DNA from: an uncultured Flavobacteriaceae bacterium
GTDB taxonomy: Bacteria; Bacteroidota; Bacteroidia; Flavobacteriales; Flavobacteriaceae
Length of the DNA stretch: 37,579 bases
Assembly: GCA_943788095.1 (NCBI GenBank)
Contig: CALSOZ010000015.1
Location: 1-37,579 of the forward strand
Direction: 5' to 3'
Both the position numbers and the translations under genes were made by a program. Shown one piece after another: positions 1 to 9,878 of this stretch (positions within the stretch are counted from its first letter, which is position 1; each line of letters starts with the position of its first letter). The notes under the pieces are model-generated. The model saw nothing but the letters and a program-made list of their open reading frames with translations. It did not search any database and was not told where the DNA came from.

Positions 1-1305
1 TGACCTAAAGACTGCATAAAACTCAGTTAATCTTGGAGAGACACCCACAGTATCTTTAATCTGTTGCAGATTTTTTATTTCATTAATTGAGTCATAGGTG
101 TCGTACAGTTTTTGAATATTTTCTTTGGTTAATGGTGCAACATGAGTAGCAATGCTTCCAGAAGCTCGTGCCTTAATTGAATCGTTTTTATTTATTCTAT
201 ATATTTCTACGTCTTTTCCTGTTATCGTCTTACAATTGATGAAATCGTTAGCTGAAATATGACTAAGTGCCATCTCAATAAAAGCTTGATAAACATCCTC
301 AAATTCATAAGATTTTTGATTTGTTATTTTATTTTCTTTATAAGAATTATAAGCGGCACGAGCACAGGCAATTTTAAAAATACCTGGGCTGATTTCATAA
401 GTTAATTCCTCTTTTTCATCATCTGATTCATCTTGAAATTTAGGTTTGATTCCTTCTACAAAATCTTCATAACTCATTGATTGATGAAAAGTTGTAAATA
501 AGACATTTTTATTCTTATAAAGGTTATCGTATATCAATTTATTAGCTTTATGATTATCCTCTTGGTACTCATTGGGTGAAATGATACTTACAACTTTATC
601 AACTGTAGAATATGTTTTCCCTGTTCCAGGAGGTCCGTATAAAATGGTATTTAATTGGCCTATATCAATACACGATACACGGAACTCTGAAGAATAATAT
701 TTTAATAATAATTGCAATCCTTTTTTGTAATTTCCATCTGATTCAGAATATTCTTTTTTAAAATCAGAAGTGTTTAAAATATTTTTTTTGTCTTCATTGA
801 TATTATATTCATGCAGAATCTCCATTGCTGAATACCCCTTATTTTTAATGTTTAAATAGTCATTTTCAATATCTCTATGACTTTTCCCCTCTTTTAAATA
901 ACCATATATTATTTTTGCATGAATTTTTTCTTTTTTATTCTTTGTTTCATTCATGGATTCTATGGAATCCAACTTATATTCATTAAATAATTTTGAGCAT
1001 ATCGAATCAAACTCTTCCTTTGTTATTTTCTGAAACGATCCAGTCTCTGCTATGGGCTGATCAATTGATTTCTTAATTTCAAAAATCTTCTTTAACTTGA
1101 GATGATTCAAAGACTTAGAAACTACTTCTAAATTGTAATAAACTGTATCATCTAAATGAACCAGTATCTTATCTCCAGAAATAATTTCTTGTTCCTTAAT
1201 ATTTGTGTCTTCTGTTTCTATTCTGAAATCAAATTCAGTACCTGATTTAATACTTGAAAATGTATTAATTAGTGGGTCAATTGAAATTATATAGTGATTT
1301 GCCAT
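1..1305 (-). CDS. McrB-type AAA+ ATPase of an R-M operon (partial, C-terminus outside window)
   Basis: The frame is open from ATG at 1305 to the window edge, giving 435 residues without a stop. Walker A GPPGTGKT lies at residues 224-231. It is followed near residues 277-293 by TTFHQSMSYEDFVEGIKP, a signature of the McrB family of nucleotide-driven restriction motors. Walker B and the sensor motifs must lie beyond the edge. Residues 1-85 look beta-rich (GDKILV, then YYNLEVV, then LKLKKIFEI) and could be a PUA/EVE-like DNA-reading domain; that is inference. The gene starts 3 bases after the stop of the preceding gene, so it is the last visible cistron of the operon. By analogy with McrBC and LlaJI it should drive a nuclease partner by nucleotide hydrolysis; a McrC-like gene would be expected just beyond base 1. 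Confidence is high for the family, low for the N-terminal domain. Confidence 0.85.
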   Translation of the reverse strand, partial: MANHYIISIDPLINTFSSIKSGTEFDFRIETEDTNIKEQEIISGDKILVHLDDTVYYNLEVVSKSLNHLKLKKIFEIKKSIDQPIAETGSFQKITKEEFDSICSKLFNEYKLDSIESMNETKNKKEKIHAKIIYGYLKEGKSHRDIENDYLNIKNKGYSAMEILHEYNINEDKKNILNTSDFKKEYSESDGNYKKGLQLLLKYYSSEFRVSCIDIGQLNTILYGPPGTGKTYSTVDKVVSIISPNEYQEDNHKANKLIYDNLYKNKNVLFTTFHQSMSYEDFVEGIKPKFQDESDDEKEELTYEISPGIFKIACARAAYNSYKENKITNQKSYEFEDVYQAFIEMALSHISANDFINCKTITGKDVEIYRINKNDSIKARASGSIATHVAPLTKENIQKLYDTYDSINEIKNLQQIKDTVGVSPRLTEFYAVFRS

Positions 1306-1308
1306 ATC

Positions 1309-2445
1309 TTAATATTGAAATTTATCTTTTTGATTTAACACTTCATTTTCAAAATATTCTATTTGTGTTTTGTTATCATTTAGAATTTTGTCAATGAGAA
1401 TTTGAATTTTATCATTTTGTTTAGATGAATAATCATATATATCAGTATTTATAGTTTTGATGAAATTTACAATCCATTCTTTTCCTTTTGCTTTATGGCC
1501 ATCGGGAATTTTTTTTGCTATTTCCCTTAATATTTCCCTATTATGCTCATTGCCTGGGGAAATAACAAACTTTAACTGAACAAACCCTTTTCTATAAATT
1601 ATTTCATAGGAAAAACTTTCTTTGTGAAGCCAATTACCGTTACTTGTTTTTGGCACAATATCTTTAATTTTTTTAGTCAGAAACCGGACTCCTCCTTTAA
1701 CAGATGAGCCAACTACATAACCATTGTTTTCAATTGTTTTCTCTATTAATTTTTTAATATTTTCCTTTCTTTTTTTATCTTCTTTTGTATTTATAGCATC
1801 AGGTAAAATAAATTCAAATTTCTGCCAAACAAGAACCTTTTTTAAAACTTTATTAGTTTGAGAATTGGACAGTTCAATGAATTCATCATGCTTGTAATGA
1901 TCTAATAGATTTTCTTTATCAAAGAAAATGTTATAAAAATCAGAAGCTTCTTTTGAGTTCTTTTTTTTCTTTTCTTTAGATTTAAATTCAATTTTAAGTT
2001 TTCCTACTCTTTTGTTGTACTCAACTTGATTTAATTCAATAGAGCTTTGTGATTTACTGAATAAAGCATCTATGTTCAAAATTTCAAACCCTTTTTTATT
2101 ACACTGAAAAACAACAATATTTTTTCTAGTTCTAATATTCATATAATATTCAATACTATTTCCTTTATCATGTTTTTCGAAAATAATTTCGTCTCCAGCG
2201 TTTACATTATTTTTTTTCCAATATTTTCCAAGACCATTAACTCTTAATTCATTTCCGGGTGTTGTAATATTTATCTGGTCATAATAGGTGCCTGATTTTA
2301 AATCTAAAAATCGAGGTGAAGGGATGTCAAGAAAAATATTTTGTCCTGTTTTTGCTGTGACTGGTACAAGAACATAAGAATCGTTAGTTCCTTTTTTATT
2401 CAGTTCGGTATCGTTTAATGACTTTATGAATTGTTGAATTTTCAT
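1309..2445 (-). CDS. Putative restriction subunit with B3/EcoRII-N-like N-terminal domain
   Basis: 378 residues. Residues 1-105 match the N-terminus of the neighbouring HNH protein in order and spacing: FIKSL, KKGTNDSYVLVP, a SGTYYD strand, NELRV, GKYW and AGDEIIFEK. This pattern resembles the B3-like DNA-binding domain of EcoRII-type enzymes (G-x2-D/H-x-Y-x-IP). The middle is lysine-rich and probably a linker (about 150-170). The C-terminal third, with NGNWLHKESFSYEI and YRKGFVQLKFVIS, resembles the non-catalytic end of some PD-(D/E)xK-type proteins. I cannot identify a nuclease active site, so catalysis is not claimed. The start ATG overlaps the stop of the HNH gene as ATGA (2442-2445), indicating translational coupling. 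Its likely role is site recognition for the McrB-like motor encoded 3 bases downstream. It could instead be an effector with an unrecognised active site. Confidence 0.6.
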   Translation of the reverse strand: MKIQQFIKSLNDTELNKKGTNDSYVLVPVTAKTGQNIFLDIPSPRFLDLKSGTYYDQINITTPGNELRVNGLGKYWKKNNVNAGDEIIFEKHDKGNSIEYYMNIRTRKNIVVFQCNKKGFEILNIDALFSKSQSSIELNQVEYNKRVGKLKIEFKSKEKKKKNSKEASDFYNIFFDKENLLDHYKHDEFIELSNSQTNKVLKKVLVWQKFEFILPDAINTKEDKKRKENIKKLIEKTIENNGYVVGSSVKGGVRFLTKKIKDIVPKTSNGNWLHKESFSYEIIYRKGFVQLKFVISPGNEHNREILREIAKKIPDGHKAKGKEWIVNFIKTINTDIYDYSSKQNDKIQILIDKILNDNKTQIEYFENEVLNQKDKFQY

Positions 2446-3146
2446 CTTTTTAATTTTTCTTTTATTTCATCAATAGTAAAGGGCATAGGCCTTCTTTTAT
2501 GAATCATTGCGTGGCAATTTGGGCACACCGGAATCAAATCATTAATGGGGTCGACTTCATATAATTCTCCTATCTCTGAAACTGGTTTAATATGATGAAC
2601 ATGGATAAATCCATCACCAACATCGCCATACTCGGCACTGAAATCAAATTCACAAGCTGCGCATAAAGCTCCATAATGTTCAATGCATTTATCTCTTGCT
2701 TTGGTATTGCGTTCATATTTATTTACCAAAATACTCTGTTTAGAACCTTCAAGATAATATTCCGCGGCATCTTCGTTTACTTCATCTGGTTGTAAAGTGA
2801 AAGTTGGGTGTGAACCAGGCACTCCATTTTTTAATAAATCAATCACAAATTTTGTTGAACCACTCGAAATTAATTTTTCAATAACTATTTCATCATCAAC
2901 AACTGCATTTTTATCATCAAAGTAGCTCCCGAATTGTGTCAGGCGAAATTCCCCATTGGCTGCATTTGAAAATGGAAAGTCATATAAGACTCCTGAGATT
3001 TTATCAATACATGTTATATTTTTCGGAGGATGACCAAAAAATGCAGGTGGGTCTGTTTTTTTTGGAATAGTTATGTATTTGTCATGCATACCTGCCTCAC
3101 CCAGATTAGAAGGGTATAGTTTTTTAACAAATGATAATTGATCCAT
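2442..3146 (-). CDS. HNH endonuclease with B3/EcoRII-N-like DNA-recognition domain
   Basis: 234 residues in two domains. Residues 1-108 are the putative reader domain shared with the next gene (FVKKL, GMHDKYITIP, SGVLYD, GEFRL, GSYF, DDEIVIEK). Residues 150-234 form a classic zinc-bound HNH/McrA-type nuclease: C162-x2-C165, H182-x-H184-H185 in IHVHHIKP, N202-D203, C208-x2-C211-H212 and H216 in VCPNCHAMIH. All expected metal and zinc ligands are present. It lies 9 bases after the first-listed methyltransferase gene and overlaps the next gene by 4 bases. In this operon it is the best visible candidate for the DNA-cleaving restriction enzyme, acting at the site protected by the two methyltransferases. 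Family assignment is firm; the cleavage site and dependence on the ATPase are inference. Confidence 0.85.
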   Translation of the reverse strand: MDQLSFVKKLYPSNLGEAGMHDKYITIPKKTDPPAFFGHPPKNITCIDKISGVLYDFPFSNAANGEFRLTQFGSYFDDKNAVVDDEIVIEKLISSGSTKFVIDLLKNGVPGSHPTFTLQPDEVNEDAAEYYLEGSKQSILVNKYERNTKARDKCIEHYGALCAACEFDFSAEYGDVGDGFIHVHHIKPVSEIGELYEVDPINDLIPVCPNCHAMIHKRRPMPFTIDEIKEKLKR

Positions 3147-3155
3147 ACTAATATT

Positions 3156-4679
3156 TTATAAATGTTTTTTAATTGCCTTTGCAATTCCTCTGGCCATTAC
3201 GGGAGGAACAGCATTTCCAATTTGCATATATGTTTTTAAATAAGCGCCTAAAAAGACATAGTCATCAGGAAAAGATTGTATTCTGGCCGCTTCTCTTGGA
3301 GTAATACTTCTCACTTGCCTTGGGTGTATATGAGAATGGCAATCCATTTTTAGATGTGCTGTTATTGTTCTTGAAGGTCTGTCTTCAATCAGTTTAAAAT
3401 ATTTGTCTTTAAAAATATGATTACGGTGTTTGTATGGCATAACATGCTTTATATTATCACTTGTCCCATCTTCTCCTTGTTTTAGAGTTCCGTATATTTC
3501 ATAATTAATATCATTTGTATATCTAGCTTTGTGGTTAAAAACATATTCTATTTTTCTCCCTTCATTGATGAGCTTCAAATAAGAGTTTTCATTGCCATTA
3601 AATTGATTTATATCCACTTTTTTACCTGTGATTTCATCATCAACTTCAGTCATGTTTTTAATCCGTGGAGCATCAAGAGGCTTTATGTATCCAAGAGCAT
3701 CTCTTAAAATATGACCTTTATTTTGGGAATAATTGTTTTCAATTTCTTGAATTATTGAGAAAGGGGTTATTTTTCTTTTTTCAGAAATATCATTTCTTAT
3801 GGCAATAAAAATTAACCGTTGTCTTTTCTGGGCAACTCCAAAATCATTTGACACTAATACTTTACAACCAACTGAATATGTAAAAGTTTTGTTTCCTTTT
3901 TCTATACTAATGTTTTTGTAGTCTTCAACTACTTGTTCTGCGTAAGGAAGCATCCCTCTTACATTTTCCATCACAACAAACTTTGGTGCAATCTTTTCAA
4001 TTGCTTTTAAATAATATTTATAAAGCTCATTTCTTGGATCATCAATGATTCTTTGCTGATTAGCTGAACTAAAACCCTGGCATGGTGGCCCTCCAATTAC
4101 AATATCTATTTCATTATCAATATACTCATCTAAATGATCAACAATATTTCGAATATCACCTAAAATAACCCTATCGTCTGGTACTTCAGGATGATTGTAT
4201 CTAAAAGTTTCTATACAAACATCTTCATAGTCATTAGCAAGATCAATCTTAAAACCTTCTTGACTAAACCCAAGGCTTAAACCACCAGCACCACAGAAGA
4301 AATCAACAGTTAGTGGCCTGTTATTTTTGTTAGACTTTTCTTGAATAATCTTCCTTTTTCTCGGGTCTAAATTGTTTAGTAAACCTCCGATCAATTTTTG
4401 GTACTTAAGGTTAAAATTAATTGCTATGATGAATTCTTTATAAAGGGGTGTTTTTAGTACTTTTATTAAATGATTTTGTTCATCCTCTGAGTTTGATTCA
4501 ATTATTCTAAGCTCTTTTAGTCTTTTTATTGTACTATTTGATATTTCTGGATCTACTGAAGAAACAACAAGATTATTCCTTTGTGCAAAAACATTTATAA
4601 GCTTAATAAAAAGATTAACCTTTTCTACAAAGAATTTTTTTTCTCTAGAGTTCTCTATTTTTTTTATGTTTTTAAACAT
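3156..4679 (-). CDS. DNA (cytosine-5-)-methyltransferase with N-terminal extension
   Basis: 507 residues. C5-cytosine methyltransferase motifs appear in canonical order: motif I DFFCGAGGLSLGF (about 126-138), motif IV GGPPCQGFSS with the catalytic Cys at 200, motif VI ENVRG (about 238-242), motif VIII QKRQRLIFIAIR (about 285), then ITPREAARIQSFPDDY and motif X GNAVPPVMARGIAKAI at the C-terminus. The target-recognition region lies between VIII and IX. A 120-residue segment precedes motif I, longer than in simple Dcm-type enzymes, and contains helix-rich lysine/isoleucine-rich sequence; it may contact DNA or a partner. The gene begins one base after the end of the upstream methyltransferase. 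It protects host DNA from the restriction proteins downstream; two enzymes in tandem suggest one per strand of an asymmetric site. Confidence 0.93.
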   Translation of the reverse strand: MFKNIKKIENSREKKFFVEKVNLFIKLINVFAQRNNLVVSSVDPEISNSTIKRLKELRIIESNSEDEQNHLIKVLKTPLYKEFIIAINFNLKYQKLIGGLLNNLDPRKRKIIQEKSNKNNRPLTVDFFCGAGGLSLGFSQEGFKIDLANDYEDVCIETFRYNHPEVPDDRVILGDIRNIVDHLDEYIDNEIDIVIGGPPCQGFSSANQQRIIDDPRNELYKYYLKAIEKIAPKFVVMENVRGMLPYAEQVVEDYKNISIEKGNKTFTYSVGCKVLVSNDFGVAQKRQRLIFIAIRNDISEKRKITPFSIIQEIENNYSQNKGHILRDALGYIKPLDAPRIKNMTEVDDEITGKKVDINQFNGNENSYLKLINEGRKIEYVFNHKARYTNDINYEIYGTLKQGEDGTSDNIKHVMPYKHRNHIFKDKYFKLIEDRPSRTITAHLKMDCHSHIHPRQVRSITPREAARIQSFPDDYVFLGAYLKTYMQIGNAVPPVMARGIAKAIKKHL

Positions 4680-4680
4680 A

Positions 4681-5886
4681 TTATAACGTTGCTAAAACTT
4701 GTTTAATACTTTTTGCGATAGCCTCGGCCATTAATGGAGGCACAGCATTACCAATTTGTTTGTACTGTTGGGTTCTCGAACCTTCAAAAATAAAATCATC
4801 AGGAAATGATTGAAGTCTTGCTGCTTCACGAGGTGTTATTGTTCTTTCTTGTTTTGGATCTGGATGTATAAACTGATTACCATCTTTGTATAGATGCGCA
4901 ATAATTGTTCTCGCAGGCTTGTCCCAAAATTGAACAACGTAACTGTTGTTAAACACTCTTTTATTAATATGATTCAAGGATGGTTTTTTTTCTAATAGAT
5001 CTGTAAAAGTCCATTTGTTTTTGCTCATTTCATAATATCTCTTTCGATCTTTTTCATTGTGTGTTCTTGATACATGGTCTAATATAATAGTTTCTTTTTT
5101 GGACCTTATTTTTGATAAATAGTCGTTCCATGAACTAATACTATGGTCAAATACCTTTTCACCTTCACCTGGTTTGATTGTTGGTAGGTCATAAATAGCA
5201 TCCTTAACTGTTGCATATTTTTTCTTGCCTTTTTTTTCTTCATCTGAGGAATTAGGATTGTAATGTGTTTTTATTATTCCATTGTATATTTCTGTTGGAT
5301 TAATTTCTATATTCTTTCTAACCCCAATTAGAATAACTCTTTTTCTTACTTGTGGAACACCGTAATCACAAGAATTTAAAACCATATCATTCGGAGATTT
5401 GATAAGTTTATAATCTTTACCAAGCTTTTTTAGAATGATATTTACCGTTTTTTCGTTTCCAAGTTTAGCAGATAACAAACCTGTTACATTTTCAAAAACA
5501 AATATTTTAGGTTTAAAATGATTTAAGATTTTTTCATAACTCTCAAAAAGATAATTTCTTGGATCATCTTGCATCCCCTTGTCATCTTTCGCCCTACCTA
5601 GTGACGAGAAGCTTTGACATGGTGGTCCACCAATTAATAAGTCGACAGACTTACCTGATATTTCTAATTCAATTTGTTCAATAATATCCTTATCAGTTAT
5701 ATCTTTCTCTAGAACACTTATTTCATTCTCTTGGTAGCCATAATGTTTCATTCTAGTTCGTAGGCTCTCACAAGCATAATGATCATATTCAACATGTGTT
5801 AAACCTTGAAAACCTTGTTTGTAGAACCCTTCACTTAATCCGCCACAACCTGCAAATAGGTCTATAAATGTATATTTCTTACTCAT
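4681..5886 (-). CDS. DNA (cytosine-5-)-methyltransferase
   Basis: 401 residues, a complete C5-cytosine methyltransferase: motif I FIDLFAGCGGLSEGF (7-21), motif IV GGPPCQSFSS with catalytic Cys 90, motif VI ENVTGLL, motif VIII QVRKRVILIGVR, TPREAARLQSFPDDF, and motif X GNAVPPLMAEAIAKSI. I chose the ATG at 5886 (MSKKYTF) over an upstream TTG at 5892 because motif I then sits at the usual distance from the N-terminus. The start overlaps the end of the controller gene by 8 bases, so translation is probably coupled. The region between motifs VIII and IX differs from that of the downstream methyltransferase, so the two probably recognise different sequences or opposite strands of one asymmetric site. 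Confidence 0.94.
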   Translation of the reverse strand: MSKKYTFIDLFAGCGGLSEGFYKQGFQGLTHVEYDHYACESLRTRMKHYGYQENEISVLEKDITDKDIIEQIELEISGKSVDLLIGGPPCQSFSSLGRAKDDKGMQDDPRNYLFESYEKILNHFKPKIFVFENVTGLLSAKLGNEKTVNIILKKLGKDYKLIKSPNDMVLNSCDYGVPQVRKRVILIGVRKNIEINPTEIYNGIIKTHYNPNSSDEEKKGKKKYATVKDAIYDLPTIKPGEGEKVFDHSISSWNDYLSKIRSKKETIILDHVSRTHNEKDRKRYYEMSKNKWTFTDLLEKKPSLNHINKRVFNNSYVVQFWDKPARTIIAHLYKDGNQFIHPDPKQERTITPREAARLQSFPDDFIFEGSRTQQYKQIGNAVPPLMAEAIAKSIKQVLATL

Positions 5887-6070
5887 GTTCAACTAAAAGT
5901 TCTTTTACACTGATGTTTAATATTTCAGCAATTTCATTAAGGCACTCAATATTCGGCTGTCTTCTGTTTTGCACATACCCGTTCACCATGTTGTAGCTCT
6001 TACCAAGTTTATCAGCGAGCCAAATTTGCTTAATGCCTTTCTCTTTAAGTACTTCTTTTATACGATTCAT
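5879..6070 (-). CDS. XRE-family HTH regulator, probable R-M controller (C) protein
   Basis: 63 residues from ATG at 6070. An upstream GTG at 6091 would add 7 residues, but ATG places the helix-turn-helix at the normal position. The whole protein is one XRE/Cro-type domain: RIKEVLKEKGIKQIWLADKL, GKSYNMVNGYVQNRRQPN, LNEIAEILNISVKELL. Small XRE proteins placed first in type II R-M operons commonly act as controller proteins that delay restriction until methylation is complete. Here it overlaps the methyltransferase start by 8 bases and heads all five downstream genes. Inverted repeats lie just upstream (6073-6081 and 6101-6117) and could be its operators. Family confidence is high; the controller role follows from position. 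Confidence 0.87.
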   Translation of the reverse strand: MNRIKEVLKEKGIKQIWLADKLGKSYNMVNGYVQNRRQPNIECLNEIAEILNISVKELLVEHE

Positions 6071-7867: not shown

Positions 7868-7977
7868 ATAAAAACAGAAAAGAAAAACTAACAAACGAAG
7901 AAGTACAACAAATCAAAGCTTTTTTTGAGCTCATTGCCAATGCTCAATTAGAAGCTTTTCAAAATTCTAAGCAATGA
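7834..7977 (+). CDS. Small helical protein upstream of serine recombinase
   Basis: 47 residues from ATG at 7834 (MLSEYECKIILNKN). The frame is open further upstream to 7693, but that part overlaps the MerR-like gene and reads like out-of-frame sequence, so I start at the internal ATG. The C-terminal half (KLTNEEVQQIKAFFELIANA) is a clean amphipathic helix pair. Its stop overlaps the recombinase ATG as ATGA (7974-7977), indicating coupled expression. It may be a recombinase cofactor; function unknown. Confidence 0.5.
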   Translation: MLSEYECKIILNKNRKEKLTNEEVQQIKAFFELIANAQLEAFQNSKQ

Positions 7978-9561
7978 AAAGAGCTGTAATCATGTCAAGA
8001 GTAAGTAGTGACGAACAAGCCAAAGGGTTTAGCTTGGGTGTTCAATTTGAGCAGCTAACAAATTATTGCAAACGCAAGGATATTGAGGTTGTTGCGCATT
8101 ATAAAGAAGACCACTCCGCTAAAAACTTCAATCGTCCTGAATTTCAAAACTTTTTGAGATTCGCAAAGAAGAACAAAAAGACCATTGATTATTCTCTTAG
8201 TCACCACTTGGGACCGCTTTTCCAGGAATGTCACAGATTCATTTGTAATGATTCGTCAATTAAAAGAAATGGGAATAGAAGTTCAAGCCATTGAACAACC
8301 CATTGATTTTAGCATACCAGAGAGCAAAGCAATGCTAGCCATTAATTTAGTATTCCCAGAAATAGATAATGACCGAAGATCGATAAAGATACGAGGTGGA
8401 ATCAGAGGGTCTTTAAAAGCAGGTCGTTGGTGCAGAATGGCACCTGTAGGTTATGTAAATAGGAGGGATGCAAATAACAGACCCATTATTCAGCCCAGCC
8501 CAAAGGCTAAATTTATTCAATTTGCATATAAGGGAATCATAAAAGGGAAAACCCAAGCAGCGATTCGTGAGGAGTTAAGTAGTAAAGGATTCAAAGTCAG
8601 TAGAAATAATTTATCTCTTTTATTGAAAAACCCTGTGTATATGGGTAAGATTGTCGTTCCAAAAGAAGGAGAGGAGCAGGAGCAGTGGATTGAGGGTGTT
8701 CATCAAGGAATTATCTCTGAGAAACTATTTTACCAAGTTCAAGAAAAGTTGTCCGAACGCCAAAAGAAAAGAAATCGACCTATTTATAATACACTTCGCG
8801 AAGAGCTTCCATTAAGAGGAATCTTACATTGCTCCAAATGCCAGTCAAAAATGACAGGAAGTCCTTCAAAGAGCTGCACGGGTAAAAAGTATTTTTATTA
8901 TCACTGCAATCATTGTAAAAAAGAGCGATTCTCTGCTAAGAAAGTCAACACGGTTTTTGAATCTATTTTGGATGATTTTCAATTTACCAAACAATCAAAA
9001 GTTCTGTATAAAGAGATTTTAAAGTCTTTATCTGGAGTTAATCAAAAAGACAGAGCAAGGAAAAGAAAAAAGTTAGAGAAGGAGTTAGCTTCCGCAAACC
9101 AACGGATTGAAAATCTACAAGATTTATTGGTAGACGGAACTATTTCTCCAAAAGTCTATGGGCAAACATTAAATCGATATACCAAGCAACGAGATCAAAT
9201 CACGTCTAATTTGAATGGACTCAATACCTCAGATTCTGAATATAAGGGTCTTATTGAAAATGCATTTCAACATTTAGAAAATTTTAAGCAAACCTATACC
9301 AACAGTGCTATTGCGCATAAAAAGAAGCTGATAAGTTCGATTTTTCCAGAAAAAATAGAATTTGACGGAAAAAAATGTCGAACTACAAGAATCAATGATG
9401 TGTTGAGGTATATCTTGCAGATAGACAAGGAGTTAGATGAAAATAAAAAGGGACAAATCTCAAAAAAATTGAGTTTGTCCCGTCTAGTGGAGTCGCCGAG
9501 AATCGAACTCGGGTCCAAACAAGCTAATAAAAAGCCTTCTACACGTTTAGTTTTTAATTGA
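7974..9561 (+). pseudogene. Large serine recombinase/integrase, frameshifted near 8192
   Basis: Two overlapping frames make one protein. The first (from ATG 7974) carries MSRVSSDEQAKGFSL, with the catalytic Ser at residue 11. The second carries LLVTTWDRFSRN, the rest of the resolvase core (IDNDRRSIKIRGGIRGSLKAGR), a recombinase domain (about 8440-8760), a zinc ribbon (HCSKCQ...HCNHC, about 8829-8925) and a coiled coil (about 9040-9140). One extra T at 8192-8193 separates them; removing it joins IDY to LLVTTWDRFSRN and restores the family motif. Large serine recombinases integrate and excise mobile elements. The last ~25 codons run antisense through the ssrA terminator and tmRNA 3' end, so the native C-terminus may end nearer 9480 or depend on the integration target. 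It may be a real pseudogene or a sequencing indel, given similar indels at the right end of the window. Confidence 0.85.
9441..9481 (-). terminator. Rho-independent terminator of ssrA, inside recombinase coding sequence
   Basis: On the minus strand a 13-14 base stem (GGGACAAACTCAA paired with TTGAGATTTGTCCC, one bulge) with a short T-rich loop is followed by TTTTTATTT. It begins 7 bases past the tmRNA discriminator base, the right place to end ssrA transcription. On the plus strand the same bases encode the end of the recombinase. Confidence 0.8.
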
Positions 9562-9878
9562 TTGTCGGAAATAAACTGACTAAAAACGGCCCACTTATTT
9601 CTTAGCTTCTTTAGTTTCGAATCCCTACCAAAGCCTTAGAGATTCTAGGTTGACATTTACGATGTCTCAAAATTGAACGCCGTGAACCAAGGCTTTCAGG
9701 AGACATAAAGCTTGCACACCTTGTGTGCCGAGGCTCATCCTACTATAATTCGGATTAAGCAGCTAAAGCGTAGTTATTCTCGCCGTTTAAAAGTTGATAT
9801 GGACTTTAACGTGTATCAATATCATCACACGACGTGCTTACAGTTTAGTAGATCTCGCTGTCAATACCAGTCGACCCC
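9488..9878 (-). ncRNA. ssrA: Transfer-messenger RNA (tmRNA)
   Basis: On the minus strand the RNA begins GGGGTCGA at 9878 and ends CGACTCCA at 9488; GGGGTCG pairs with CGACTCC to form the acceptor stem. The 3' end includes the TΨC-like GAGTTCGATTCTCGGC. The tag frame at 9784-9755 reads GGC GAG AAT AAC TAC GCT TTA GCT GCT TAA, giving the peptide GENNYALAA, as in other Bacteroidota. Mature length is about 391 nt before CCA addition. CCA is not encoded (CTA follows), so it must be added by a tRNA nucleotidyltransferase. tmRNA rescues stalled ribosomes with SmpB and marks the nascent chain for proteolysis. Its 3' end is a common attachment site for mobile elements, and here the recombinase gene ends in it. 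Confidence 0.96.

Follow-up and report, generated by a model that had tools for sequence, protein, structure and literature searches.

A probably mobile LlaJI-like restriction-modification operon with two candidate restriction arms behind one methyltransferase pair in an uncultured Flavobacteriaceae bacterium

The LlaJI restriction-modification (R-M) system of the Lactococcus plasmid pNP40 is described in PMC1459862 as two C5 methyltransferases directed at an asymmetric site together with a McrB-like motor, R1, and a PD-(D/E)XK protein, R2, and two further papers assign the reading of the unmodified asymmetric site to a B3 domain (PMC12707154, PMC7680126). PMC1459862 also gives BsuM and LlaI a three-ORF (open reading frame) restriction cassette with a short McrB-like protein (343 and 337 aa). 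The present work concerns an operon of this kind at one end of a 37,579-nucleotide stretch of DNA from an uncultured Flavobacteriaceae bacterium (contig CALSOZ010000015.1, assembly GCA_943788095.1), hereafter the window, which spans contig C15 of a 1.74-Mb assembly (75% complete) from end to end, base 1 being a contig end. Like LlaJI, it encodes two C5 methyltransferases and, as far as visible, a McrB-like motor, a likeness that the preliminary description of this sequence had rightly seen; B3-type site reading is a further feature in common. We give a probability of about 0.6 to the reading that the window carries a mobile LlaJI/BsuM-like type II R-M cassette in which two restriction arms stand behind a single methyltransferase pair.

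As far as LlaJI is known from its description, the operon diverges from it at two points. The DNA-binding domain of LlaJI is the N-terminus of R1 whereas the B3 domains of the window lie on separate proteins, and LlaJI has one nuclease subunit whereas the window adds an HNH nuclease with a B3 domain of its own. An HNH arm is not mentioned either in the available part of the PMC1459862 description of the BsuM and LlaI cassettes. The preliminary description had called the operon an intermediate or hybrid between type II systems and McrBC, but those words describe LlaJI itself and miss what is new here. McrBC targets modified DNA and works without methyltransferases of its own; the window shares with it a McrB-type ATPase core, as far as visible, but carries two C5 methyltransferases in its operon. 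The B3 fold as sequence reader is shared with UbaLAI, a direct Foldseek match, and with EcoRII, BfiI and NgoAVII. In UbaLAI, EcoRII and NgoAVII, B3 is joined to nuclease folds other than HNH, and an excerpt on BfiI describes B3 joined to a PLD nuclease (PMC4081073).

The PcaI and PcaII systems, according to a part of PMC8989522, bring together in one cell a methyltransferase with a McrB/DUF2357 restriction enzyme and an HNH endonuclease; that HNH enzyme is methyl-dependent, is encoded away from any methyltransferase gene and stands in conflict with the R-M system, whereas the HNH protein of the window sits inside the operon with a B3 reader. A census of McrBC systems notes their frequent association with methyltransferases and defers it to a later paper (PMC11090510). 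Our literature search returned no description of B3-HNH proteins or of two restriction arms in LlaJI-like operons, the later paper announced in PMC11090510 not having been sought by itself; since novelty rests on absence from that search, we claim it only weakly.

The operon consists of six minus-strand ORFs with intergenic spacings, measured from ATG starts, of -8, +1, +9, -4 and +3 bases, as the gaps or overlaps of 9 bases or fewer reported at the outset. The regulator, both methyltransferases and the HNH nuclease first recognized from the sequence alone are confirmed by Pfam:

5879..6070, minus strand: XRE/Cro-type regulator (HTH_3, 2.8e-9; conserved start ATG 6070, alternative GTG 6091)
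4681..5886, minus strand: M1, C5-cytosine methyltransferase (PF00145, 4.9e-71; ATG 5886, ORF listed from TTG 5892)
3156..4679, minus strand: M2, C5-cytosine methyltransferase with an N-terminal extension of ~120 aa (PF00145, 2e-66, residues 124-505)
2442..3146, minus strand: B3-HNH, predicted B3 domain (residues 1-108, Foldseek) fused to an HNH nuclease (PF01844, 2.5e-7)
1309..2445, minus strand: predicted two-part B3 reader (residues 1-214, Foldseek) with a PDC-S26-type C-terminal domain (224-374; PADLOC, 1.2e-20)
1..1305, minus strand: McrB-like ATPase, 435-aa incomplete ORF (T. gammatolerans McrB, TgMcrB, structures 6ut5/6ut3, 5.9e-9)

The first ~100 residues of B3-HNH and of the reader are homologous (29% identity, E 9e-6 and 3e-6). 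AlphaFold predicts with confidence residues 1-110 of B3-HNH (pLDDT 85-97 in its B3 half) and, overall, residues 1-215 of the reader, the C-terminal domain of the latter being of low confidence. Foldseek returned B3 folds at probability 1.00 for both proteins, with H. pylori LlaJI.R1 (6c5d) and UbaLAI (5o63) among the matches of B3-HNH and UbaLAI among those of the reader; judging from the predicted models, both carry the B3 pseudobarrel fold. With sequence profiles, plant B3 chains come up only as weak matches (E 0.08 to 1.9), amid other weak, unrelated ones, and in Pfam neither protein reaches B3 while the reader of a related locus, L061 (L and G numbers denote loci and genomes), does so weakly (0.036). 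The preliminary description had proposed two stand-alone reader proteins. Both hold as B3 proteins, but the second is not a reader only, its residues 224-374 (window 1309-1785, minus strand) matching PDC-S26. This module is shared, and also ends a PD-(D/E)XK (PDDEXK_4) protein of L037. An alignment across a stop hinted that the PDC-S26 domain might be an N-terminal extension of the L061 McrB, a reading rejected on a pairwise E of 4.2. The HNH residues HxHH...N...CxxCH are in place in the window B3-HNH and common to three aligned B3-HNH proteins; the zinc-type cysteines of the motif are present and PF01844 scores above cut-off. That DNA recognition lies on separate small proteins, as had been suggested, is upheld by a B3 hidden Markov model (HMM), built from these operons and hence fitted to them, which finds B3 in these two proteins and none in the visible window McrB.

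Since base 1 is the contig end, the ATPase gene is incomplete and the operon is cut at its edge. Walker A (GPPGTGKT) lies at residue 224 of the ATPase and FHQSMSYEDFVEG (FHQSxxYEDFVEG) at 273. The window ends 211 residues past Walker A; in the plasmid relatives L140 and L141, NTAD lies ~315 residues and Walker B 257 residues past it (the latter pattern found in L140 only), and the corresponding Walker B and sensor positions therefore lie off the contig. From its sequence, the ATPase appears to be McrB-type as far as it is visible: the earlier assignment is supported by the TgMcrB match and Walker A, but reaches no further than the truncated ORF. Residues 1 to about 140 form an N-terminal domain common to the McrB proteins of L059, L061 and L063. 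Among three plasmid relatives of the ATPase that were viewed, two (Runella, Haliscomenobacter) stand in BREX clusters adjoining a nuclease/McrC-like gene whose annotation reads restriction endonuclease or 5-methylcytosine restriction component; the Vibrio casei plasmid relative has no nuclease/McrC-like neighbour. On two Bacteroidota plasmids, L140 and L141, the McrB-like ATPase is followed by a restriction-nuclease gene inside a BREX cluster, before pglZ.

By sequence and model, then, the window encodes two C5 methyltransferases and two B3 proteins, one fused to HNH and the other preceding a McrB-like ATPase. In the arrangement that we favour, M1 and M2 would between them methylate both strands of a single asymmetric site. 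One arm, B3-HNH, would bind the unmethylated site and cut nearby on its own; in the other, the B3 reader would mark the unmethylated site for the McrB motor and a McrC-type PD-(D/E)XK partner encoded off the contig, which would translocate and cut. Both arms would presumably read the same site, and methylation would block both B3 domains, so that one methyltransferase pair would protect against both arms. The arms would be independent modules that can be gained, lost or swapped. By analogy, two independent arms under one protection would be the simplest transfer from LlaJI.

The same gene order, which the preliminary description had suggested seeking in relatives, recurs in Hyunsoonleella aestuarii (L061) and is hence not a chance neighbourhood: XRE, M1, M2, B3-HNH, reader, McrB (941 aa) and a McrC-type DUF2357/PDDEXK_7 protein (759 aa), the added HNH nuclease included. 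Identities to the window are 82% for the XRE protein (62 aa, same position), 85% for M1, 81% for M2, 54% for B3-HNH (52% for the L064 protein, over 232-234 aa) and 48% for the reader (44-48% over 213 aa among the stand-alone readers of L059, L061 and L063). L061 McrB matches over its N-terminal domain only (43% over 134 residues) and, used as query, hits in the assembly of the window nothing but the window itself. M1 and M2 are respectively 85-91% and 81-85% identical to their counterparts in L059, L060 and L061, and the tandem C5 methyltransferase pair, with PF00145 in both window proteins, is conserved among relatives.

Either arm is also found alone. L059, L060, L063 and L146 encode reader, McrB and McrC with no B3-HNH, the McrC of L060 and L063 being DUF2357/PDDEXK_7 by Pfam, while in L064 B3-HNH is the sole arm behind M1/M2; Psychroflexus has the McrB/McrC arm only and a Flavobacterium metagenome-assembled genome B3-HNH only. 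In L068 and L072 a B3-GIY-like protein is the sole cutter behind M1/M2. The Lachnospiraceae loci L071 and L103 carry both arms, with a divergent B3-HNH placed after the McrC-type gene, which is RE_LlaJI (PF09563, 2.8e-37) in L071 and 57% identical to it in L103. In the window, by contrast, B3-HNH precedes the reader. The Lachnospiraceae HNH halves match that of the window weakly (29%, E 6e-6 and 6e-4), although PF01844 is matched on the Lachnospiraceae and the window side alike; a Lachnospiraceae B3-HNH query matched 7 of 387 genomes, at full length only in G1108, the source of L071, and from residue 198 in the rest.

On sequence grounds the HNH protein seems dispensable to the motor, given that the McrB/McrC arm is found without HNH and B3-HNH in the absence of the motor. 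The most durable alternative, which we nevertheless consider improbable, is a single machine in which B3-HNH would be an extra nuclease or nickase subunit assembling with reader, McrB and McrC and needed for cleavage. Its gene overlaps the reader gene by 4 bases and the order is kept in L061, as such a machine would have it, but reader-McrB-McrC operons without B3-HNH exist (e.g., L059, L060, L063), L064 has B3-HNH without McrB, and L071 and L103 carry their divergent B3-HNH after McrC. That either arm can be found by itself behind an M1/M2 pair of this kind also speaks against an obligate machine. Slightly less probable again is the idea that each methyltransferase protects a different site, with one reader apiece, as two methyltransferases and two readers only 29% identical might suggest; it is disfavoured because operons with a single reader or cutter (L059, L060, L063, L064, L068, L072) keep both M1 and M2.

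In all, 84,980 genomes were scanned with an alignment of an M2 region (window and L036), yielding 229 relatives of M2, of which 80 loci were kept; all locus tallies refer to these 80, which are not all independent since L096 equals L036, a seed, and L122 and L123 are near-identical in B3. Classes were assigned with the B3 HMM, simple motif patterns and hand assignment of nucleases, a Walker-A ORF of >180 aa that lay within 9 kb being counted as "McrB-like"; Pfam supplied the HNH assignment for L061 and L064, which the motif pattern did not pick up. A B3 domain is present in 66 loci: as a stand-alone reader with a separate Walker-A ORF in 27, fused to the Walker-A protein in 24, as reader only in 5, as B3-GIY-like protein in 3, as reader with Walker-A ORF and B3-HNH in 3 (L061, L071, L103), and in single loci as B3-HNH alone (L064), two readers with a Walker-A ORF (L112), a long B3 protein without Walker A and a cut B3. 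A separate reader, taken in the preliminary description for a new departure, is therefore commonplace. Homologous operons do not always lack the HNH and second reader genes: L061 has both, and the combination is rare. Among the 14 loci with no B3, L077 and L088 stop just past M2, with 83 and 191 bases remaining, and in 11 of the remaining 12 loci M1 is missing or at most 36% identical. The B3 gene is not always directly behind M2: it lies ~5 kb upstream in L121, separated from it by two genes in L085 and on the opposite strand in L087.

The B3 tree (71 domains, 112 columns, many forks unresolved) places the window B3-HNH with those of L061 and L064, three B3-GIY-like proteins and the B3-McrB fusion of L062 (96/91); the window reader joins the readers of L059, L061, L063 and L065 (97/84). 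As they fall in separate groups, the two B3 domains of the window represent two lineages and not a fresh duplicate. Lachnospiraceae B3-HNH proteins form their own group (100/100), and starred branches force at least 2 changes of the HNH label, to which losses could add; the HNH fusion therefore probably arose or moved two or more times. R68 and D85 are present without exception (71/71 B3 domains) and E66 is kept in 62/71, a pattern that fits one reader family without proving one target site. Between L059 and L060, M1 is 95% and M2 89% identical while the readers are only 30% identical, and readers have therefore been exchanged behind near-constant methyltransferases.

Several observations weigh against the two-arm cassette as we read it. 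Two-arm operons are few, the three loci above plus the window. The contig reaches neither the McrC partner nor most of the ATPase core; PF09563 was not found in the rest of the 75%-complete assembly (a B. subtilis control being positive), nor did the L061 McrC query match elsewhere in it, in a search run without a positive-control genome. The window's AAA module belongs to a different subtype from the one in L059 and L061, which makes L061 no more than a partial ortholog. In L064, a 430-aa ORF lies 750 bases downstream and loss of a McrB arm there is possible. The three B3-HNH proteins stay apart from one another within the 96/91 group, where several branches are long, and the conserved B3 residues may be general to the family. 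Given the low identity of the two B3 domains, reading of the same site is something we infer; the model as a whole is drawn from sequence, predicted structure and analogy. Four of the five plasmid HNH matches that start before residue 92 (L185-L188; the fifth is H45), among 12 listed of 205 plasmid records, have no B3 by the HMM at E 10. The HNH half of the B3-HNH model is of low confidence, and its nearest solved HNH relative is McrA, named 5-methylcytosine-specific (1.2e-4).

The McrA match, together with the modification dependence of SRA-HNH and EVE-HNH enzymes (parts of PMC6212794 and PMC7897488) and the Vsr repair gene that comes after B3-HNH in L071 (PF03852, 8.5e-33), would suit a type IV-like enzyme that depends on modification, or a repair nickase, carried along with the methyltransferases, but we hold this very unlikely, as the reader is a B3 fold and not SRA, EVE or YTH, cutting C5-methylated DNA would attack the host methylated by M1/M2, and members of its B3 group are also joined to McrB (L062) or to GIY-like domains.

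A broader reading, to which we give slightly less than even odds, is one mark with many executioners: behind a fixed C5 methyltransferase pair any effector with a matching B3 could be plugged in, singly or two at once, be it HNH, GIY-YIG-like, a McrB fusion or a stand-alone adaptor for McrB/McrC. The window and Hyunsoonleella would then hold a nucleoside triphosphate (NTP)-driven and an NTP-free cutter for the same word, and a phage blocking one arm would still be cut by the other. The usual view pairs one methyltransferase set with one restriction enzyme. Should the two arms here share a site, the methyltransferase pair would be a stable platform and the nuclease the exchangeable part, which would help to explain the recruitment of McrBC-like motors into type II systems and make B3 a portable address module; we conjecture that phage protection is widened when a nuclease with a motor and one without are stacked on a single mark.

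Two further features bear on mobility:

7974..9561, plus strand: large serine recombinase, two overlapping ORFs with a broken frame (PF00239, 2.1e-9 and 1.3e-8; PF07508, 1.5e-14)
9487..9878, minus strand: transfer-messenger RNA (tmRNA) gene, 3' end overlapped by the recombinase ORF (ARAGORN)

The tmRNA gene is a typical integration site of islands, and its 3' end is the probable attachment site here; the serine recombinase would be the integration module, outside the restriction mechanism. A direct repeat (>=15 bases) of the tmRNA 3' end was looked for in the window and not found; the opposite end of the island would lie off the contig. GC content is 30% in the operon and 36% beyond the tmRNA gene. 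M2 has no match at 1e-25 in two same-genus genomes; it matches 2 of 397 same-family genomes (its own and G761, in which stretch L148 contains the L061 operon) and 3 of 395 in a class sample (its own, G359 with L036, and G630). The nearby serine recombinase, placed at the tmRNA gene, and the absence of the methyltransferase from two genomes of the genus make it probable that the R-M operon is on a mobile island inserted at ssrA.

The B3-S26 protein matched 3 of 395 genomes of the phylum, its own included and the other two partially, and had no match in plasmids or phages (tblastn, 1e-5). B3-HNH matched 34 of 296 genomes, its own included, all others with the HNH half only. In viral contigs, query A1 gave no confirmed relative and query A5 gave 26 loci, none with B3 by the HMM; phage record MT836682 (89% coverage, 27%) likewise has no B3 by HMM.

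Other effectors were seen in the collected loci. Proteins combining B3 with a GIY-YIG-like motif (YVGQDSxCxG...YFGSS) lie near M1-M2 at L068:3462-4253, L072:10574-11374 and L087:4351-5166, in genomes labelled Rickettsiales, Alphaproteobacteria and Rhodospirillaceae; the assignment is at the level of motif and mutual alignment, Pfam giving SegE_GIY-YIG at 0.064, below cut-off, for L068 and none for L072 or L087, with no PDB match. In Myroides guanonis (L112:14525-18845), a reader, McrB-like and McrC-like set is followed by another stand-alone B3 reader, after which come an AAA_21-type ATPase and an HNH protein; this second group may represent another kind of effector. The cluster L043:7092-13999, with an HNH protein, a GHKL-ATPase-like ORF, a small B3 protein (9.3e-19), a C5 methyltransferase and an EcoRII-N/B3-reader-like ORF, is possibly a different multi-subunit B3 system. 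Vsr mismatch-endonuclease-like genes stand beside the methyltransferase operons at L062:7454-7894, L071:14996-15442 and L103:13338-13568, by Pfam for L071 and by eye for the others.

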